Below, piece by piece: positions 11,904-37,084 of a stretch of DNA of 64,000 nucleotides. The notes under the pieces are model-generated. The model had not been told where the DNA came from. It did no database searches and saw only the letters and a list, made by a program, of their open reading frames with translations. Position 1 is the stretch's first letter; every line of letters starts with the position of its first letter. Source of the stretch: a virus; IMG/VR virus record IMGVR_UViG_3300020579_000009, positions 1 through 64,000 of that record. One strand, 5' to 3'. Made by a program: the position numbers and the translations under genes.

Positions 11904-12592
11904 AGCGTCCAACCTCCTGTCGTCGGCGTGCCACCACCTTGTGTGGGCACCGTAGGCACACCTGGAACTGGCCCGAACACGCTAGGAGGCAAAGAGCCAG
12001 GTGTATCGCCAGGCGCTCTCCCCGGTACTTGATTACCCTGTCCTAGTAAGTTTGCAAGAACGCCGCCAAGCCCGCCAAGTCCACTGCCAAGACTTTGATA
12101 AGGGAGTTGCGCTGAGACGTTTGGCTGATTCTGTGACGCTCCCGCCATAGCTCCGGCAGAAGTAAGTCCCTGCTGCGCCTGAAACTTGATTTGCTCGTTA
12201 TTCAGTAGATTCGCTAGATAGTTTCCTGCTCCGCTTGCCGCCATGCCTGAGCCGATATTTGCAAGTCCCGCCGCAGTAGTTCCACTTGGCCCATAGCCCA
12301 ATCCTGTTTGACCTATCTGTTCGCGGAACTGTCCCGCTGCGTTGTTGCCTTGCTGGGCGTTCTGCGCTGCCGCCGCAGCTTGAATATTCTGAAGGAACGG
12401 GCTTCCAGATTTCGTATAGGGCGTATAGAATGCTTCCGCTTGGTCGAAGGCTTTCTGCTTATCGGCCATTTCCTGCTGGGCGATTTGTTCCTGCTGTGTC
12501 AGAGCCTTCTGTTGACGGCCTCCAGCCTTGGATGCCTCGACAGCTCCGGCGATGGCAGCCCCCGCAGCGATAAGCCCTGAAATCAGCGGCAT
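11900..12592 (-). CDS. Internal virion protein, P22 gp7-like type
   Basis: 230 aa. An N-terminal Gly/Ala-rich helix (ISGLIAAGAAIAGAVEASKA) leads into a Gln-rich coiled coil (QQKALTQQEQIAQQEMADKQ) and a Gly/Pro-rich C-terminal half. This composition is typical of the small membrane-active ejection proteins of podoviruses. Unit B homologue at 58145-58870 keeps the middle (GGEATGQAQNLSQ type) and the Gly-rich end. It overlaps the GNAT gene by ten bases. Confidence 0.5.
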   Translation of the reverse strand: MPLISGLIAAGAAIAGAVEASKAGGRQQKALTQQEQIAQQEMADKQKAFDQAEAFYTPYTKSGSPFLQNIQAAAAAQNAQQGNNAAGQFREQIGQTGLGYGPSGTTAAGLANIGSGMAASGAGNYLANLLNNEQIKFQAQQGLTSAGAMAGASQNQPNVSAQLPYQSLGSGLGGLGGVLANLLGQGNQVPGRAPGDTPGSLPPSVFGPVPGVPTVPTQGGGTPTTGGWTL

Positions 12593-13032
12593 CGAAGTTC
12601 TTTCATGTACGTCACCTCTACCTGCTTATAGCCTAATCTCTCATACAGCTTTCCAACTTCCGCGTTCGGCGCGGTGAATCCCATGCGCGTTGCGCCCATC
12701 TCTCGTGCCTGTTTCTCTGCTTCCCACAAGAGTTTTATCGCTCCGCCTTCCTTGCGTTCTTGCGGCTCGACGTACCACATAATTTCCGTTGCCGTTGGCT
12801 CTCCAGTGAAGTAATGAGGGAAAATAATAAACCCTAAAAGCCCAGCCACTTTGCCACCATCGTTCTCATATAGCAGGACTTTCCCGTTTGCTCCGCCGAT
12901 GACATTGAGCGCCAATTTTGCGCTTTCCTCCGGCGTGTCTTTTAGCATCCCGGCGTATGGGCCATCCTTAAGAGACTGACTACCCAGCCTCACGATGTCG
13001 GATACATCCTCAACCGTCGCCGCTCGTATCAA
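12583..13032 (-). CDS. GNAT N-acyltransferase
   Basis: 149 aa with the complete GNAT fold: start IRAATVEDVSDIVRL, strands around GKVAGLLGFIIFPHY, the central EIMWYVEPQERKEGGAIKLL containing the R-x-x-G-x-A type acyl-CoA loop (R-K-E-G-G-A, about 92-97), then EMGATRMGFTAPN and YERLGYKQVEVTYMKEL. The family moves an acyl group from CoA, or in some members from acyl carrier protein, to an amine. Its ATG overlaps the stop of the acyl-carrier-protein gene, so the pair is co-translated. The pair is absent from unit B at the same point. The substrate is unknown. Confidence 0.85.
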   Translation of the reverse strand: MIRAATVEDVSDIVRLGSQSLKDGPYAGMLKDTPEESAKLALNVIGGANGKVLLYENDGGKVAGLLGFIIFPHYFTGEPTATEIMWYVEPQERKEGGAIKLLWEAEKQAREMGATRMGFTAPNAEVGKLYERLGYKQVEVTYMKELRCR

Positions 13033-13253
13033 TGCGCCTCCGCGTAGTTCACAATGTCCTGCACCGATAAAAGATTCTGCGCCTCGCAGTCCGGTATCTC
13101 TTTCCCTAGCCCGTCCTCAAGAGCCTGAATCAAGCTGGCCATTTCGAGAGAGTCCGTAACCAGTGTGACGAGTCGGCAGTCAGGCGTCACCAGCTCCCCC
13201 GTTTCTTGCTGGATAACTCTAGTCACTTTCTCCAATGTCTCGCTTCTCATCAT
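13029..13253 (-). CDS. Acyl carrier protein
   Basis: 74-aa acidic four-helix protein aligning over its full length with bacterial ACP: helix 1 LEKVTRVIQQETG, then TDSLEMASLIQALED with the phosphopantetheine serine at residue 35 (DSL motif), then GKEIPDCEAQNLLSVQDIVNY, matching the EIPDEEAEKI..V.DAI.Y end of ACP. Activity would need a host holo-ACP synthase. It begins with a double ATG overlapping the stop of the upstream virion gene and ends by overlapping the GNAT start. No ketosynthase or ligase lies nearby, so it may serve as the GNAT acyl donor. Confidence 0.85.
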   Translation of the reverse strand: MMRSETLEKVTRVIQQETGELVTPDCRLVTLVTDSLEMASLIQALEDGLGKEIPDCEAQNLLSVQDIVNYAEAH

Positions 13254-26187: not shown

Positions 26188-26505
26188 TCAGTTAAGGGCA
26201 TGGTTCACGGGCTCAGGAATGTCGTCGCTGACCGATTGATTCAGTTCGCGCTGCATGGCGTGAAGGGCTTTGGTGATTTTCAGAATGAATTGCCCTTCGA
26301 GGAAAACAGGGGTGAAGTTCGCGGCGTCGATGAAGTCGGTGTCTTTCTTGTGGAGAAGTAGCCGCCAGCGGTCTTGGCCGAAAACCGGGAAAAGCAACTG
26401 GCCATTCGAGCCGTGATATTCGTAGCCTTCGGGGGGCAAGAGGACTTCAGCGAAAAGCGTTTCTACTAGTTCATCGGGCGTGGGCGGCGGAGGTGCCATG
26501 TTCAT
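26188..26505 (-). CDS. Hypothetical late protein (105 aa)
   Basis: Overlaps the terminase stop by four bases. Pro-rich start (MAPPPPTPDELVETLFAEVL) followed by a compact alpha/beta domain (HGSNGQLLFPVFGQDRWRLL; FILKITKALHAMQRELNQS). Soluble. No family recognised. Confidence 0.55.
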   Translation of the reverse strand: MNMAPPPPTPDELVETLFAEVLLPPEGYEYHGSNGQLLFPVFGQDRWRLLLHKKDTDFIDAANFTPVFLEGQFILKITKALHAMQRELNQSVSDDIPEPVNHALN

Positions 26506-27989
26506 TGCGGAGGAATCTCCCTAGCCTGTTGTACTCTTAAATCCTTAATTCTCAAAGTGGAAAATCCGTGGCGGCGCAAAGGTTCCTTTTCCTTGTGTTC
26601 CTCGACGCGCTGCCAGTAGAGCCGTGAGGCTACGTCAAGCTTTGGATTCTCCCACTTTTTCGGCAAAACAAGTTCGCTCGGAAGCGGCCTAAAGGTGTGA
26701 ATCAGGTAGCGGATAGCGTCAGGACAATGGGAATTGGCGTGGCTCGGCTCGTTTTTCGGATTACCGGATTTGTCTTTTGCCCATTTATAAGTCGTTAGTT
26801 CGCGGATGGTGTTGGTGCAGGACTTGGCTACGAAGTAGCGCGGAGAGCCTTCTTTTCCGGTGAAAGGATGCTTTAGGCGAGGGTCGATGTGCATGTATTG
26901 GGCGACTTTGAAAAGGCCGGGTTTCACGTCCTTGATGGCTGCTTGGCCGGAGATGCCGTAATCTTCCAGCTCAATCGCCGCCGCTCTTTGGGCATAGTCG
27001 TAGGCCATGCCTTCGAGCTGACGGCCATCCATTTTTTCGTGGAACTGTTCGGCAATGGGTTTTACGCGGAGTTCCGAGCCGTAGATTTCGGCAAACTGGT
27101 AGAGATTGCCGTCCGGGGCCAAGCTCGCTATGGGGATAGCCCAAGGATCGCCTTCTTCGCCGCCGCCAACGTCCGTGCCGACAAAAACAGGCCATTCTAC
27201 GGGCGGTCTCTGGTGCCCGGAAAACACTTCCCAATCCCGCGCGTCATCCCAGACGTGGGTATTATCGCCAAATTCCTTATAAATCAGGTCGGTAAAGTCG
27301 GTGAAACTTCCGTTTACGAAGCGGTCGTACCAGTCCGGTGGATAGAGGCATTTTCTGCGGATGTGATATTCCTCCGGCAGAAAGACGTTCTCCATCGAAG
27401 TCGCGCCGATGCCAAGATTCAGGCTTTTCATTTCCGCCGAGCGGTCGGGGTCGAAGAAATACCGCCACTGGTAGTCGTGCCCGGCTGGGTTTGAGGCGCT
27501 ACGGTAGATTCTTCGTGAAACGTTTTTGCGTCTCAGGCGTCCGGTAAGCATCAGGAACACTTCTTCGGAGACTTCGCTGGCCTCATCTACCCCGGCAAAG
27601 CTCAAATTTAAGCTGCGGATGTGGCCTGTCACTTTAGGGTCGGAAATATCGAGATGCCGGAAAATGACTTGATGGCCGTTAGAGAATGTCCAAGTCTTTT
27701 TGGCTTCCGCCCAATCGCCCATGCTAGATGGCACTAGTTCAAGGAACGTTTTCATGGTGGTGGATTCAAGGGCTGGCATATTGAGGCGTCCGAGGAGGGA
27801 AAAACCGTTCGGCTCGATAACGGCGTTGCAGATACAGGACGTACAGAGGGAGACGGATTTGCTTGCGCCTTCTCCGCCGACGAAGGCTACTGCGAAATAC
27901 TTCGAGGTTACGAATTCCTTGGCTTTTGGTAACTTTTCAAGTCCCGCGATTGCGTCAGCGAGTTCTAGTTCTCCGGTGTAGAAGCCCAC
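26502..27989 (-). CDS. Terminase large subunit
   Basis: 495-aa packaging motor with ATPase and nuclease halves. The Walker A is GGEGASKS at residues 38-45, Walker B FAGVDEAS with Asp135-Glu136, coupling motif SASNPAG at about 164-170. The nuclease half has the first acidic residue in VGTDVGGG (Asp273), an AYDYAQ strand near 332 and the final HCPDAIRYL near 432-440. It pumps DNA into the prohead through the portal. It overlaps its neighbours by 25 and 4 nt. The unit B counterpart is beyond the window. Confidence 0.92.
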   Translation of the reverse strand: MGFYTGELELADAIAGLEKLPKAKEFVTSKYFAVAFVGGEGASKSVSLCTSCICNAVIEPNGFSLLGRLNMPALESTTMKTFLELVPSSMGDWAEAKKTWTFSNGHQVIFRHLDISDPKVTGHIRSLNLSFAGVDEASEVSEEVFLMLTGRLRRKNVSRRIYRSASNPAGHDYQWRYFFDPDRSAEMKSLNLGIGATSMENVFLPEEYHIRRKCLYPPDWYDRFVNGSFTDFTDLIYKEFGDNTHVWDDARDWEVFSGHQRPPVEWPVFVGTDVGGGEEGDPWAIPIASLAPDGNLYQFAEIYGSELRVKPIAEQFHEKMDGRQLEGMAYDYAQRAAAIELEDYGISGQAAIKDVKPGLFKVAQYMHIDPRLKHPFTGKEGSPRYFVAKSCTNTIRELTTYKWAKDKSGNPKNEPSHANSHCPDAIRYLIHTFRPLPSELVLPKKWENPKLDVASRLYWQRVEEHKEKEPLRRHGFSTLRIKDLRVQQAREIPPQ

Positions 27990-29254: not shown

Positions 29255-29710
29255 CTATTTGTCTGGAGTAACGTCTATTGCGGAGTCTTGCTTAACTGGA
29301 GTGTTTGGCTGTACTTGCATAAGATTCTGGATAGCAATCGTCAGACCGGGATCAGGGGCTTTGCCTTGCTTCGAGTTTAATGGCCAGATAGTATTTTCAA
29401 GGACCTTAATTGCCATGTTTTCAGAGTTTTGCGAGAGTCTATGCTTTGCGACGCGAATGCTTTCCGGGATCAGGTCCATACTCGCAAGTCTTTCTCTCTG
29501 AAGTGTCTCATCGAAATTGTTCAGGTCTATCACGTTTGTAACCGTGTTATAGGCTATGCCTAGGTCTCTTTTAATCTTTAGCTTAGACTGCCCATTAGCT
29601 CTTTTTGCCAGAATTGCAGACTGAATAGCAGGGGCTTTCCTTGAGGACTTTGGCCGATACGCTTTCTTATTGGCTGTAACAGTCTCTAATTGCGGAGAAT
29701 CGGTGCTCAT
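29255..29710 (-). CDS. HTH protein, candidate terminase small subunit
   Basis: 151 aa. Basic N-terminus (KKAYRPKSSRKAPAIQSAI) leads to a helix-turn-helix (RANGQSKLKIKRDLGIAYNTVTNVI, about 36-60) of the homeodomain-like kind, followed by a helical body (ESIRVAKHRLSQNSENMAIK) like the assembly domain of small terminases. It is the nearest DNA-binding protein to the large terminase, though a transcription regulator is an equal alternative. It lies between a terminator (29748-29781) and the late promoter, so it is its own unit. Confidence 0.5.
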   Translation of the reverse strand: MSTDSPQLETVTANKKAYRPKSSRKAPAIQSAILAKRANGQSKLKIKRDLGIAYNTVTNVIDLNNFDETLQRERLASMDLIPESIRVAKHRLSQNSENMAIKVLENTIWPLNSKQGKAPDPGLTIAIQNLMQVQPNTPVKQDSAIDVTPDK

Positions 29711-29747: not shown

Positions 29748-29781
29748 AAAAAAAGGCCAGAGTTTTTAGGCTCTGGCCTTT
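29748..29781 (-). terminator. Rho-independent terminator of the MoxR/VWA operon
   Basis: On the minus strand an 11-bp stem AAAGGCCAGAG (29781-29771) / CTCTGGCCTTT (29762-29752), 8-nt loop, followed by a T-run. It lies 19 bases after the last gene of the operon (29800). Confidence 0.85.
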
Positions 29782-29799
29782 GGGTTTGAGTGTTTTCTG

Positions 29800-29994
29800 C
29801 TACTTGCGCGTGTAGGCTAGGAATTTTTCGCGCTGAAAATAGGGGTTGAATTGCCTGCAAACGTCTGCGATCTTGCGGCAGTCTACGTCCCACTGACTTT
29901 CGGCCATGTCTGTTAGGACGTTTGGGTTGATAGGCTTTAACGGTCTCGCGGACCGTAGCGCATCTGCTAGGGCAATGAAGTGTTTGCGTGTCAT
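29800..29994 (-). CDS. Third gene of MoxR/VWA operon (64 aa)
   Basis: ATG overlaps the VWA gene stop (ATGA). Begins MTRKHFIALADALRSARP and continues helical with aromatic residues (QWDVDCRKIADVCRQFNPYF, REKFLAYTRK). This compact type occurs as a stand-alone small protein on phages and plasmids, to my recollection, without known role. Tight coupling and the terminator right behind it make it part of the operon. Confidence 0.6.
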   Translation of the reverse strand: MTRKHFIALADALRSARPLKPINPNVLTDMAESQWDVDCRKIADVCRQFNPYFQREKFLAYTRK

Positions 29995-31229
29995 GGTTTG
30001 GCCGCCAGTCGGAAGTACTCTGGTAGGCTGGAAACATAGAGAATATTATTCTCCGCGCATTTGTTGCGGCATTCGAGCGTAAGCAAGGGGTGTGGCGCGT
30101 CCCCTACTCCCGTTACCACGCCGTCACATATCCAGACTTTTGGTCCGCGCTGTCTGGCAAGCCAGTCTAGGGCAGGTCCGTCCACCCCGTTACCGTCGCC
30201 CATTCTTTCCGGGTTGGACGCGTATCGTCCGTTTTGCGCGAAGATAATGAGCCAGCCGTCCCTTTTGCCGTCTGAACAGTATCCCGCTATGGTTGCGGCT
30301 GGCGCTGTCTTTAGCAGTTCTACCAGGTCCCCGCTGGATAGGTTCATCGATCCCGATATGTCTATTAGGATATTTCCGCCAATGCTAGGGACCTTGCGAT
30401 CCCATGCCATGCCATCAAACGCCGGGAGTAAGGCGCGTAAGGGATTACGGAATGCTCCCATAAACCCTGCCTTGCGTTTGTGGCCTAGTCTCATCCGCGA
30501 AATAGACTTGTCTAGGTTAGGTTTGACAATTTCCATGTCGCACCATTCCGGGGTTTCGTTGAAAAGACGCGGCAGGGTAGTACTGCCCTTGGCGTCCAAT
30601 TTGGACAGGTCCTCGCGTTCCGTTTGGGGTTTGCCAAAATAAGATTCTAGGGTTTTGGCCGTGAGGATTATTTTGTCGGTAACTTCAGACGGGATGCGTG
30701 TTTTGCCTTTCATGCTTGCGCCGATAGCGCGAAGCGTTAGGCTGGCCGTTTTGAGCACGGCCATGTCACGCGCGTTCAGTACTTTATCGGTTATCTTGTT
30801 TTTTACGCTGAGAATCTGCAAGGCGCGCTGTGCGTGTATCTCGCGGATGAATTCTTGCGGTATCTCGCCGTCAATTTTCGGCATGGGCAGGTTTTTAATG
30901 CTGTCCACACCTTGCGCAAAGGCAAACCCGTTAACGATGTTATCTAGGACGGGTTGTACCCATTCATTCTTGGCGCAATGGAACGTCCGGTCTATATCTG
31001 GGGTTATCGCGTCAACGGCAAGGTGAGCGTATTCATGCGCGCGGATCGCTATGTCCTTATCTTCATTTGTCAGTGGCACGCCAAAGGCACGGCCAGTGTA
31101 AGAGGTAGTTCCAGCCGTGCCTTGCATCGGATCGCAGACCGTGTATTCTCCGTTTCCCCTGCCTGCTACGGCTGGAACTGGAATGTACTTACGGTCCTTG
31201 GCGCGTTTTTTGAGTATTTGAGGTATCAC
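29991..31229 (-). CDS. Zincin-like and VWA-domain protein (MoxR partner)
   Basis: 412 aa in two parts. The N-terminal half has HEYAH at residues 65-69, an HExxH zinc-protease motif, with a following helix VQPVLDNIVNGF like the N..D..N helix of DUF2201-type metallopeptidase domains. The C-terminal third is a von Willebrand A domain with an intact MIDAS, DISGSMN at 290-296 (Asp290, Ser292, Ser294), and later strands KVWICDGVVTG and NNILYVSSLPEY. Such proteins work with MoxR AAA+ ATPases as chaperone or metal-insertion pairs. The start overlaps the ATPase stop. Target unknown. Confidence 0.8.
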   Translation of the reverse strand: MIPQILKKRAKDRKYIPVPAVAGRGNGEYTVCDPMQGTAGTTSYTGRAFGVPLTNEDKDIAIRAHEYAHLAVDAITPDIDRTFHCAKNEWVQPVLDNIVNGFAFAQGVDSIKNLPMPKIDGEIPQEFIREIHAQRALQILSVKNKITDKVLNARDMAVLKTASLTLRAIGASMKGKTRIPSEVTDKIILTAKTLESYFGKPQTEREDLSKLDAKGSTTLPRLFNETPEWCDMEIVKPNLDKSISRMRLGHKRKAGFMGAFRNPLRALLPAFDGMAWDRKVPSIGGNILIDISGSMNLSSGDLVELLKTAPAATIAGYCSDGKRDGWLIIFAQNGRYASNPERMGDGNGVDGPALDWLARQRGPKVWICDGVVTGVGDAPHPLLTLECRNKCAENNILYVSSLPEYFRLAAKP

Positions 31230-31924
31230 GCGACACCCCGCAGTTTGAGGGTGTCGGTTATGTCCTTGGCGCGTTCCGCATAAGCAAGGACAGAGGCAGT
31301 TTCCATGTCCACCCCTGCATTGCGAAGCTTGGCGTAGGCGAAGCTAGCGCGGGTGGAAATAGCGCGGGAGCTGTCTTTCCAGGAGTCCTTTACCGCGTCC
31401 CCTAACCCTGCCCATGCCGAATTCAGCGCGGAAATTAGTCCGGGATGAGGATCAACCAAATTGATTACACACTCGCACCTATCCCGCAAGGCAGGATCAA
31501 GCTCATCGGCTGTATCGTTGGAAGTAATCACGGCGCGAAAATTCCTGTTCGCCGTTACGGTCTCGCCGTCCGCCAAGGTAATTCTCGCGGAGTCCTTGCT
31601 GTCTAGGACGGCCAGTAATGCATCCTTTACAGCACCAGACGCGCGGGACAGCTCATTAATTACCAGAGTCTTTCCTTCCCGGAATGCCGTCACTACAGGT
31701 CCATCATGGTAGACAAAGGCATTTCCTTCCGGGATATAGTGGCCAAACAATTCCTGCACAACAGTATCCTCTGAGAGATTCAGGGACACCGTATTACTTG
31801 GATTCTCTCCCCCTTGCGCTGTGAACGTTTTTCCGATACCGGGTTTCCCGCAAACGCAAACAACCCGCAAGTGTTGGATCGCGGTATCCAGTAAGGACCA
31901 TGCATTTAGATTAGTAGTAGTCAT
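31226..31924 (-). CDS. MoxR-type AAA+ ATPase
   Basis: 232 aa from the ATG at 31924, behind AAAAGGAAAAA. Walker A is GKPGIGKT (26-33), Walker B is TLVINELSR with N90-E91 in the MoxR style, sensor 1 VITSND (132-137), arginine finger LDPALRDRCE (142-151), and a C-terminal helical lid. Resembles CobS/MoxR ATPases. It is the first gene of a three-gene operon with the VWA protein, transcribed away from the early region. It is shorter than most MoxR proteins (about 300 aa), lacking an extended lid. Confidence 0.85.
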   Translation of the reverse strand: MTTTNLNAWSLLDTAIQHLRVVCVCGKPGIGKTFTAQGGENPSNTVSLNLSEDTVVQELFGHYIPEGNAFVYHDGPVVTAFREGKTLVINELSRASGAVKDALLAVLDSKDSARITLADGETVTANRNFRAVITSNDTADELDPALRDRCECVINLVDPHPGLISALNSAWAGLGDAVKDSWKDSSRAISTRASFAYAKLRNAGVDMETASVLAYAERAKDITDTLKLRGVA

Positions 31925-32347
31925 GTCGGTTTTTCCTTTTCTTGATTCAGATTCGGGTTGCCCATGCGAGGACACCCCGTAGGCATAGAGTAGACTGTAG
32001 CGTGTAGCAATGCAAGTGAATAATCGCCTGTCTCGACAAATGTAACTAGTAGTACGCGTATGAATTACGCGAATTGTCTTGACATGGGAAAACAATAGGG
32101 TGTAAAAACTACAGTGTAGTTTGTCGGTTCCATGCGAGTACGGGATATCGGGAGTTTAACGGTACTGGTATCCCGTTACTATCCAAACGTACAGTACTAC
32201 GCCATTAAGGGGAGTTTTTGTTACTCTCAAAAAAGCCGGGGGTTTTTGGAAAATTTCCTATATATGGCCCGCAAAAATTTTTGAAATTCATCCTGTGGGA
32301 AGTAGGACCCATGCCAAGGGACCCTCTCTGCCCGATTGGAGCCGAAC
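31925..32347. promoter_or_regulatory. Divergent control region between MoxR operon and early genes
   Basis: A 423-bp stretch without a believable gene. It holds a rightward promoter TTGACA (32079-32084), 18 nt, TAAAAA (32103-32108); a perfect dyad overlapping the end of that promoter (32106-32122); a second imperfect inverted repeat AACGG...CCGTT (32158-32177); two similar TGTCTYGACA words near 32030 and 32076; and an A/G-rich stretch near 32240-32290. The leftward promoter for the MoxR operon is not clear by eye. Confidence 0.6.
32106..32122. promoter_or_regulatory. Perfect dyad operator
   Basis: AAACTACA-G-TGTAGTTT, eight bases each side of one central base with no mismatch, overlapping the -10 region of the promoter at 32079-32108. 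A repressor here would block rightward early transcription. The binding protein is unknown. Confidence 0.65.
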
Positions 32348-32632
32348 ATGCCCATTAAACTAATGGAAAATGAAAAAGATTCTATTCCCAAGCCTAAAGT
32401 GAAAGCGGTTATACGCCAAACGAAGATTTGGCAAGAAGCCGTAGAGTTCCTTGCTGGCGGCAAGCCGTTTGAAATCAAGCTGCCCAAGAATTTCCTGCTC
32501 GCGCAGGGCATCACCGATCCGGTGGTATCTTTTAAGGTTTCGCTTCAGCGCTTTGCGGAACGCAAGGGTTTCCGCTACCGCATCTATATCGTGGACGCTG
32601 TGATCTATTGCGTCCCAGTACTCACATCCTGA
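32348..32632 (+). CDS. Hypothetical early protein (94 aa)
   Basis: Chosen ATG 32348 lies six bases after TGGAG; an in-frame TTG at 32336 is less likely. Product starts MPIKLMENEKDSIPKPKVK and ends with an alpha/beta stretch (SFKVSLQRFAERKGFRYRIY). Looks like a small DNA-binding or modulator protein; no family recognised. Confidence 0.55.
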   Translation: MPIKLMENEKDSIPKPKVKAVIRQTKIWQEAVEFLAGGKPFEIKLPKNFLLAQGITDPVVSFKVSLQRFAERKGFRYRIYIVDAVIYCVPVLTS

Positions 32633-36162: not shown

Positions 36163-36563
36163 GCGATTCCCCTAACTTTGCAACAATCCAGCTTTGGTTT
36201 CAGCCGGTCTCCATCTAATTCTCGCGCAATCTGACGGTCGATGCGCTTCCGTAGGTTGACGTGCGCTCCTGTTGGCCTGTAGCCATTCTGAATCAGGTCG
36301 TTGCGCTCCAGTAGCGTGTAGCAGCGATGCGTCCATGAACAATGCCGAATCGCAAAGAAAACGTGAACGCGACTACGGCCCTGACTCACACGGCGCACGA
36401 CTCGAAGCGTCCCAGAGCGCGAACGTAGAACGTCTCCAGCCCTGACTTTCCATATCCAGGAGAATCCGCGCTGTTTGTCGCTCTCCATTTTCATACGCTT
36501 TGTGCGCTCAATGTACCAATCGTCGCTCGTGGCTACATCCATTGGCTCCTCCGATGTCGTCAT
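36159..36563 (-). CDS. Hypothetical accessory protein (134 aa)
   Basis: ATG at 36563 overlaps the DUF1643 stop. Starts MTTSEEPMDVATSDDWYIER; the middle is a beta domain (RAGDVLRSRSGTLRVVRRVS, RVHVFFAIRHCSWT) like a small SH3-like fold, with a basic end. Unrecognised. Confidence 0.5.
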   Translation of the reverse strand: MTTSEEPMDVATSDDWYIERTKRMKMESDKQRGFSWIWKVRAGDVLRSRSGTLRVVRRVSQGRSRVHVFFAIRHCSWTHRCYTLLERNDLIQNGYRPTGAHVNLRKRIDRQIARELDGDRLKPKLDCCKVRGIA

Positions 36564-37084
36564 GGCTGCGATGTCTCCTTCCAAAATGGTATCGGCTTTG
36601 CATCCTTCGGCAGATAGAGCGGATGACGCGGCGAGCCATCTTTGTTCCTGCCAAAACATTTGAAGTCCGTCCGCAGAATTTGTGAAAACTTTACGATTAC
36701 TTTCTCATCCCGCTTTAGATAATGGCCGTGCTTTCCCCACGCCGCGATGATGATTCCAGCTTCTCTAGCCGAATCCTCAATCCATGTATCGTTGTCTGGG
36801 CCTATCGGGTCTTTCGCTGCCATCATCTCTTTGGGATTGGTCGCCCGAAACGCAAACAGATTCGTCATGCACAACGCTCCGTAGCCCCACGCATTAGCGA
36901 AGCCTACGCAGCGACGAATCGTAGGGTCGTCTTGGATTTCATCAGCGGTAGACGGGTTCAGCCCCACAAACATCGCATAGGCTCGCTTGCGCCCGAATCC
37001 TTGACGCTCCTCTCCGTCAAGCATCGGCCAGTCGCGCCAAAGCGTATAGCGATAAACTCTATCCTCGCTGAGAATTGCGCTCAC
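36560..37084 (-). CDS. DUF1643 family protein
   Basis: 174 aa from a GTG at 37084 behind GGGGAGCAGAGG. Matches the family throughout: RYTLWRDWP, MFVGLNPSTADEIQDDPTIR, RCVGFANAWGYGALCMTNLFA, RATNPKEMMAAKDPIGPDND, AWGKHG, and the end PRHPLYLPKDAKPIPF. DUF1643 proteins are scattered in bacteria and phages; their biochemistry is not established to my knowledge. The N-P-S-T-A-D and the two A-W-G/H-P-L stretches look like an active or binding site. Confidence 0.9.
   Translation of the reverse strand: MSAILSEDRVYRYTLWRDWPMLDGEERQGFGRKRAYAMFVGLNPSTADEIQDDPTIRRCVGFANAWGYGALCMTNLFAFRATNPKEMMAAKDPIGPDNDTWIEDSAREAGIIIAAWGKHGHYLKRDEKVIVKFSQILRTDFKCFGRNKDGSPRHPLYLPKDAKPIPFWKETSQP

Follow-up and report, generated by a model that had tools for sequence, protein, structure and literature searches.

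On the reverse strand of a 64,000-nt stretch of soil phage DNA (the window; positions 1 to 64,000 of IMG/VR record IMGVR_UViG_3300020579_000009, the whole of which, G000, measures 78.7 kb), three overlapping genes code for a short MoxR-type AAA+ ATPase, a protein in which a zincin-like region with an HExxH motif is fused to a predicted VWA domain, and a 64-aa protein (Table 1). The initial annotation of the locus had described these three genes and had singled out residues K32, E66, and D290, all of which prove to be the correct ones. It had also given ATGA as the form of coupling; this holds for the end of the fusion gene and the 64-aa open reading frame, but the stop codon of the ATPase gene overlaps the GTG start of the fusion gene as GTGA. 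Along with these overlaps, the terminator, which is as strong as had been claimed (−22.8 kcal/mol; z = −6.4), makes this a self-contained unit.

Table 1. Features of the three-gene unit and its surroundings (positions in the window)
Feature	Position	Strand	Basis or remark
MoxR-type AAA+ ATPase, 232 aa	31226..31924	-	PF07728, phrog_16448
Zincin-like (HEYAH) and VWA fusion protein, 412 aa, GTG start	29991..31229	-	phrog_33218 (VWA part), AlphaFold model
HEYAH, residues 65-69, on helix 57-75 of the model	31023..31037	-	Sequence, model
Leu95, at the third-zinc-ligand position, on helix 88-105 of the model	30945..30947	-	Alignments, model
DISGS, residues 290-294, MIDAS motif 1 of the VWA domain	30348..30362	-	D290, S292, and S294 invariant in 49 of 49
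64-aa protein	29800..29994	-	No family match; 75% identity in L002, Ka/Ks 0.128
Intrinsic terminator, 11-bp stem and T run	29752..29781	-	Kept in L002; just before the putative small-terminase gene
98-aa gene, divergent from the unit	32336..32632	+	86% identity in L002; Ka/Ks 0.096
Leader between the divergent genes	31925..32335		Alignment of window phage with L002
Putative small terminase, downstream of the unit	29255-29710		Named by position and likeness across relatives; no family match
Large terminase (TerL)	26502-27989		phrog_2

The ATPase matched PF07728 (AAA_5) with 63.1 bits (E = 3.5e-17; curated cutoff, 22) and phrog_16448 with an E value of 1e-23. It has Walker A (GKPGIGKT, residues 26 to 33) and Walker B (LVINE, ending at E91) motifs, the sensor N136, and an Arg-finger region (R147/R149), in keeping with invariant residues in its alignment of relatives, and the nearest solved sequences are those of midasin, NorQ (E = 5e-5), and CbbQ. 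The AAA_5 match and the overlapping VWA gene bear out the earlier description of a phage MoxR AAA+ ATPase with a VWA partner. The 64-aa protein had no match in Pfam, PHROG, PADLOC, or phages, and the idea that it is a common small phage protein gained no support from a search.

The trio recurs in an independent 46.8-kb phage contig (L002/G001), with the three genes in identical order and the terminator kept. The ATPases of the two phages are 88% identical and the fusion proteins 78% identical, with Ka/Ks values of 0.063 and 0.19, respectively (Table 1 gives those of the two small genes); the Ks values of the unit genes are about those of terminase, portal, and capsid. All three genes of the unit are under purifying selection, and the recurrence of the trio at Ka/Ks values of 0.06 to 0.19 shows that the observation is more than chance. 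The divergent 98-aa gene is absent from other TerL-related loci and is present only where the unit is. In the two-phage alignment of the leader, the stretches GACTACAsTGTAG and TACTAGTTACATTT are conserved; no sigma-70-type promoter, a consensus that may not be that of the host, was matched upstream of the ATPase gene. As a separate observation, a tract of some 120 bp within the fusion gene (30430-30553) is identical between both phages, synonymous sites included, with an identity of about 80% elsewhere, and a recent exchange or an overlapping signal may lie behind this.

Distribution and gene neighborhoods

We examined a TerL-related sample of 33 records with 34 terminases (G000 has two), in which an AAA_5 domain together with a phrog_33218 match occurs in G000 and G001 only. 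The phage L018, which by TerL (90% identity), portal (91%), and capsid (94%) is as near to the window phage as G001 is, lacks the unit in the 21.6 kb examined. Seven of the unit-less records are 41 to 46 kb in length, the exact frequencies being soft because some unit-less records are fragments, and other TerL-related phages have unrelated small genes ahead of the small terminase. On G000 itself, a second related phage lies in tandem (terminase 59%, portal 44%, and capsid 54% identical) with nothing resembling the unit before its small terminase; its early region falls beyond the contig end. Thus, with its own terminator and its absence from close relatives, the unit is an accessory (moron-like) cassette, and since close phages exist without it, the conserved head and packaging core is independent of it. 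When bacterial genomes were searched with TerL, a single Planctomycetes contig with 26% identity came up, and for this reason no host is assigned.

Several further features of these phages were noted in passing. (i) The stretches 2301-32632 and 47117-78747 of G000 (window and L010) are two co-linear related phages, an arrangement that tandem proviruses or an assembly join may have given. (ii) At 12583-13253 (-), among the late structural genes, a 74-aa product that by eye resembles an acyl carrier protein (TDSLEMASLIQALEDGLGKEI) is followed by one that by eye is GNAT-like, whose gene is 76% identical in G001. (iii) The early genes of the phage include one for a DUF1643 protein (155 bits; 36560-37084, -). 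(iv) Related phages code for low-complexity repeat proteins with GYGSGYGYG and CSDCSGCSD repeats (L035:3858-4475, -; L018:2206-2778, +).

Locus searches with a single protein or a two-row alignment of either the ATPase or the fusion protein returned L002 only, and tblastn of the fusion protein against phages or plasmids gave nothing credible. The wider family was found via phrog_33218 in Planctomycetota, where this profile picked out related pairs in 3 of 392 genomes plus two further genomes, and then by a mixed alignment search, in which 199 IMG/VR viral contigs proved to encode relatives of the fusion protein (80 of these relatives were kept). An ATPase gene lies directly upstream of the fusion relative in 41 of the 42 nonredundant loci with room upstream. 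A tblastn search with four family members had no match in 50,697 deposited phage genomes, and we found no description of the family or its spread in the open-licence papers searched. Judged by sequence, the pair is a family separate from the earlier phage zincin-VWA pairs and outside Pfam.

The neighbors of the pair differ between clades. After the pair, the largest clade has a small protein, then an exonuclease (phrog_284) and, in most cases, a single-strand annealing protein; in other clades, genes within 8 kb include those for a helicase, primase, or Sak4-like protein; and in the L075/L087 lineage the pair stands just before TerS/TerL, as in the window phage. That no partner gene is common to all fits a machine with differing clients or one whose client is a host protein. 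A chaperone of virion assembly or packaging, of the kind proposed for the jumbo-phage DUF2201-type pair and for ATV, a two-tailed virus of archaea, would account for the position directly upstream of the putative small terminase and TerL, which the independent L075/L087 lineage repeats, and the proposal is already in print for the same layout (PMC7824862). However, the exonuclease and annealing-protein context of the largest clade, the separate terminator of the unit, and the existence of phages with 90 to 94% identical TerL, portal, and capsid but without the pair make this role an unlikely one. The same phages weaken virion maturation, one of the uses first suggested for the unit, as far as a core role is concerned.

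We are also doubtful that the unit is a device for host takeover or counter-defense directed at a host complex. Although conflict systems do include MoxR-vWA pairs (PMC7159879) and the patchy, moron-like distribution would suit such a device, PADLOC gave only a weak TRIP13 AAA match, and no effector domain or VMAP-like third protein was recognized with Pfam or PADLOC. The counter-defense role raised at the outset thus found no support in these searches, with the proviso that anti-defense genes need not match a defense database.

The fusion protein and its zinc site

The fusion protein matched no Pfam family at E values up to 1 and was linked to phrog_33218, a family with no assigned function, through its VWA half (E = 6.6e-17). 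A two-row alignment gave a useless structural model (pLDDT, 34), whereas a 39-row alignment gave an AlphaFold model with a mean pLDDT of 76 and values mostly above 86 for residues 281 to 410. The model comprises two N-terminal helices (residues 57 to 75 and 88 to 105) and a C-terminal domain that, going by the model, is a VWA fold. Among solved structures, the model comes closest to the NorQ-bound VWA domain of NorD (Z = 9.4; rmsd, 3.8; 147 residues; Foldseek E = 2.9e-3), which tops the VWA domains listed for the model. With the full-length model as the query, the solved-structure matches listed span residues 280 to 412 only, and none of them covers the N-terminal domain with its helix-helix arrangement. 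Among viral models, weak matches were a Podoviridae VWFA protein (E = 1.6e-5) and the CobT-like protein of Gordonia phage GMA7 (Foldseek E = 5.9e-5, but with a TM of 0.15 to 0.20 and an rmsd of 20.6); in BFVD, a close match in structure (E = 1e-14) was to a single unnamed viral protein.

In the 49 nonredundant proteins on which the zinc-site counts are based, DxSxS, M295, Y317, G334, and D369 are invariant, as is GNxVDxPA, in its case partly by selection, this being one of the scan patterns. The MIDAS ascribed to the VWA domain is therefore present in part: DxSxS and the late Asp (D369) are there, but GNxVDxPA stands where a metal-binding Thr would usually be, which leaves metal-dependent binding of a client uncertain. 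The zincin motif is less constant. HExxH is intact in 38 of the 49 proteins and lost in 11, on what by eye are eight separate branches of the tree (L074 and the window protein join it by long branches), and 35 proteins have both HExxH and the downstream Glu. Conservation thus extends to the AAA-VWA core and not to the protease site.

For the third zinc ligand, 41 of the 49 have Glu, and at this position the window and G001 proteins have Leu95. These two and L074 are the only members with HExxH and without the Glu, their ExxR having become LDNI, LDNV, or TDAV. A shift of the alignment by one residue would make Asp96, beside Leu95, a ligand, and this residue could act as a substitute; hence, the loss of zinc binding is likely rather than certain. 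We conclude from the alignments that the zincin-like domain of the window protein has probably lost protease activity and probably has a binding or structural role instead.

These substitutions bear directly on the ATP-gated cleavage that the initial annotation had read from the fusion of HExxH to VWA, in which the ATPase would feed a client into an active HExxH site. The HEYAH motif is present in both close phages and lies on one helix followed by a second, as in zincins, and the retention of HExxH with Glu in 33 of 47 phage relatives means that activity may persist in most members. Nonetheless, with Leu or Thr in place of the Glu and Val or Ile in place of the Arg in the window protein, G001, and L074, with the repeated loss of HExxH across the family, and with faster evolution of the N-terminal half than of the VWA half (73% versus 84% identity between the window and G001), we regard an ATP-gated protease as quite improbable, and cleavage by the window copy is unlikely.

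A proposed remodeling machine

Building on the observed layout, purifying selection, ATPase family, modeled VWA fold, near-universal adjacency of the two genes, third-ligand substitution, and absence from close phages, we think it probable that the unit is an optional protein-remodeling machine, made up of a MoxR-type ATPase and a VWA adaptor and carried as an accessory transcription unit. The ATPase would form a hexameric ring, on which the fusion protein would dock via its VWA domain, as NorD does on NorQ; the N-terminal zincin-like domain would hold a client protein, and ATP hydrolysis would pull on or rearrange this client without proteolysis. The client might be a host protein or, perhaps, a replication or packaging complex of the phage.

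MoxR-VWA machines have been described mainly in the maturation of metal enzymes and in conflict systems, and we know of no viral client of such a machine save in the two-tailed archaeal virus. The pair described here is compact (232 and 412 aa), small enough for reconstitution, and has natural members with and without the zinc site. Such members would allow one to ask whether these phage pairs cleave or remodel, a question that applies also to the cyanophage "peptidase/CobS" pair.

Comparison with known systems

The architecture as such is already known, since the jumbo-phage DUF2201 and phage CobS/peptidase pairs have the same layout; it is thus not an unusual one. In the group 2.2 jumbo phages, a MoxR ATPase is paired with a metallopeptidase-vWA protein, for which a part in virion assembly with processing has been proposed (Iyer 2021, PMC7824862). 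We traced the example to Agrobacterium phage Atu_ph07 (ASV44729/ASV44728), where, as in the window, an AAA+ ATPase is encoded beside a protein with an N-terminal metallopeptidase-like region and a C-terminal vWA domain. ASV44728 consists of DUF2201_N and DUF2201 and, as a control, matched PF13203 and PF09967 with 127.7 and 41.3 bits, respectively. In contrast, the window fusion protein matched neither family at E values up to 1, and pairwise BLAST between the two was not significant.

The CobS/CobT-type pairs of phages (cyanophage P-HM1 cobS/"peptidase"; Gordonia phages GMA6, DalanDe, and GMA7; Brevibacterium phage Cantare) likewise combine AAA_5 with an adjacent HExxH and VWA protein, and their HExxH...EDxR(I/V) signature is common to them and to the bacterial and most viral members of the window family. 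The ATPase profile aligns with phage CobS-type ATPases (E = 3e-18). However, the CobT-type proteins are 580 to 740 aa long, with long linkers and a canonical GGT MIDAS, and BLAST did not match them significantly to the window protein; hhalign gave a local alignment only, at an E value of about 1e-3. Metal insertion, in which the pair would aid a host CobN-type chelatase in making cobalamin, as has been proposed for viral cobST (PMC8651126), is very improbable despite the CobS alignment and the weak likeness in fold to the GMA7 protein, as the fusion protein had no CobT Pfam match at E values up to 1 and no chelatase or cobalamin gene was recognized in the annotated stretches.

In Planctomycetota (G297, G362, G447, and G492), an ATPase gene directly precedes one for a HELAH/HELGH...EDAR and VWA protein. 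The ATPase is 37% identical to that of the window in G297 and G362, the VWA domain is 38 to 49% identical where complete, and the GNxVDxPA variant is shared. These pairs differ in lying on bacterial contigs, in having complete zinc ligands, and in an extra upstream gene, and some have metabolic neighbors, e.g., an isocitrate-dehydrogenase-like gene. In three Planctomycetota genomes we noted, ahead of the pair, a conserved protein of about 280 to 300 aa with no Pfam match (L066:1672-2502, -; L056:6410-7312, +; L064:2177-3181, +), a possible dedicated client or partner.

With NorQ-NorD, a MoxR AAA+ ATPase and its VWA cochaperone that activate nitric oxide reductase, the window pair shares the adjacent ATPase and VWA genes. 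It differs in being phage-borne, in having an ATPase of only 232 aa and a partner with an N-terminal HExxH domain, and in its surroundings, where no nitric oxide reductase was recognized. The role in protein remodeling that had been suggested by analogy is strengthened by the NorQ-bound NorD VWA domain being the best solved match. More tentatively, the pair may be a member of an unnamed and widespread two-gene AAA-VWA family of uncultivated phages that has lost HExxH on several branches and rearranges complexes of phage packaging or of replication-recombination, as a phage equivalent of NorQ-NorD remodeling.
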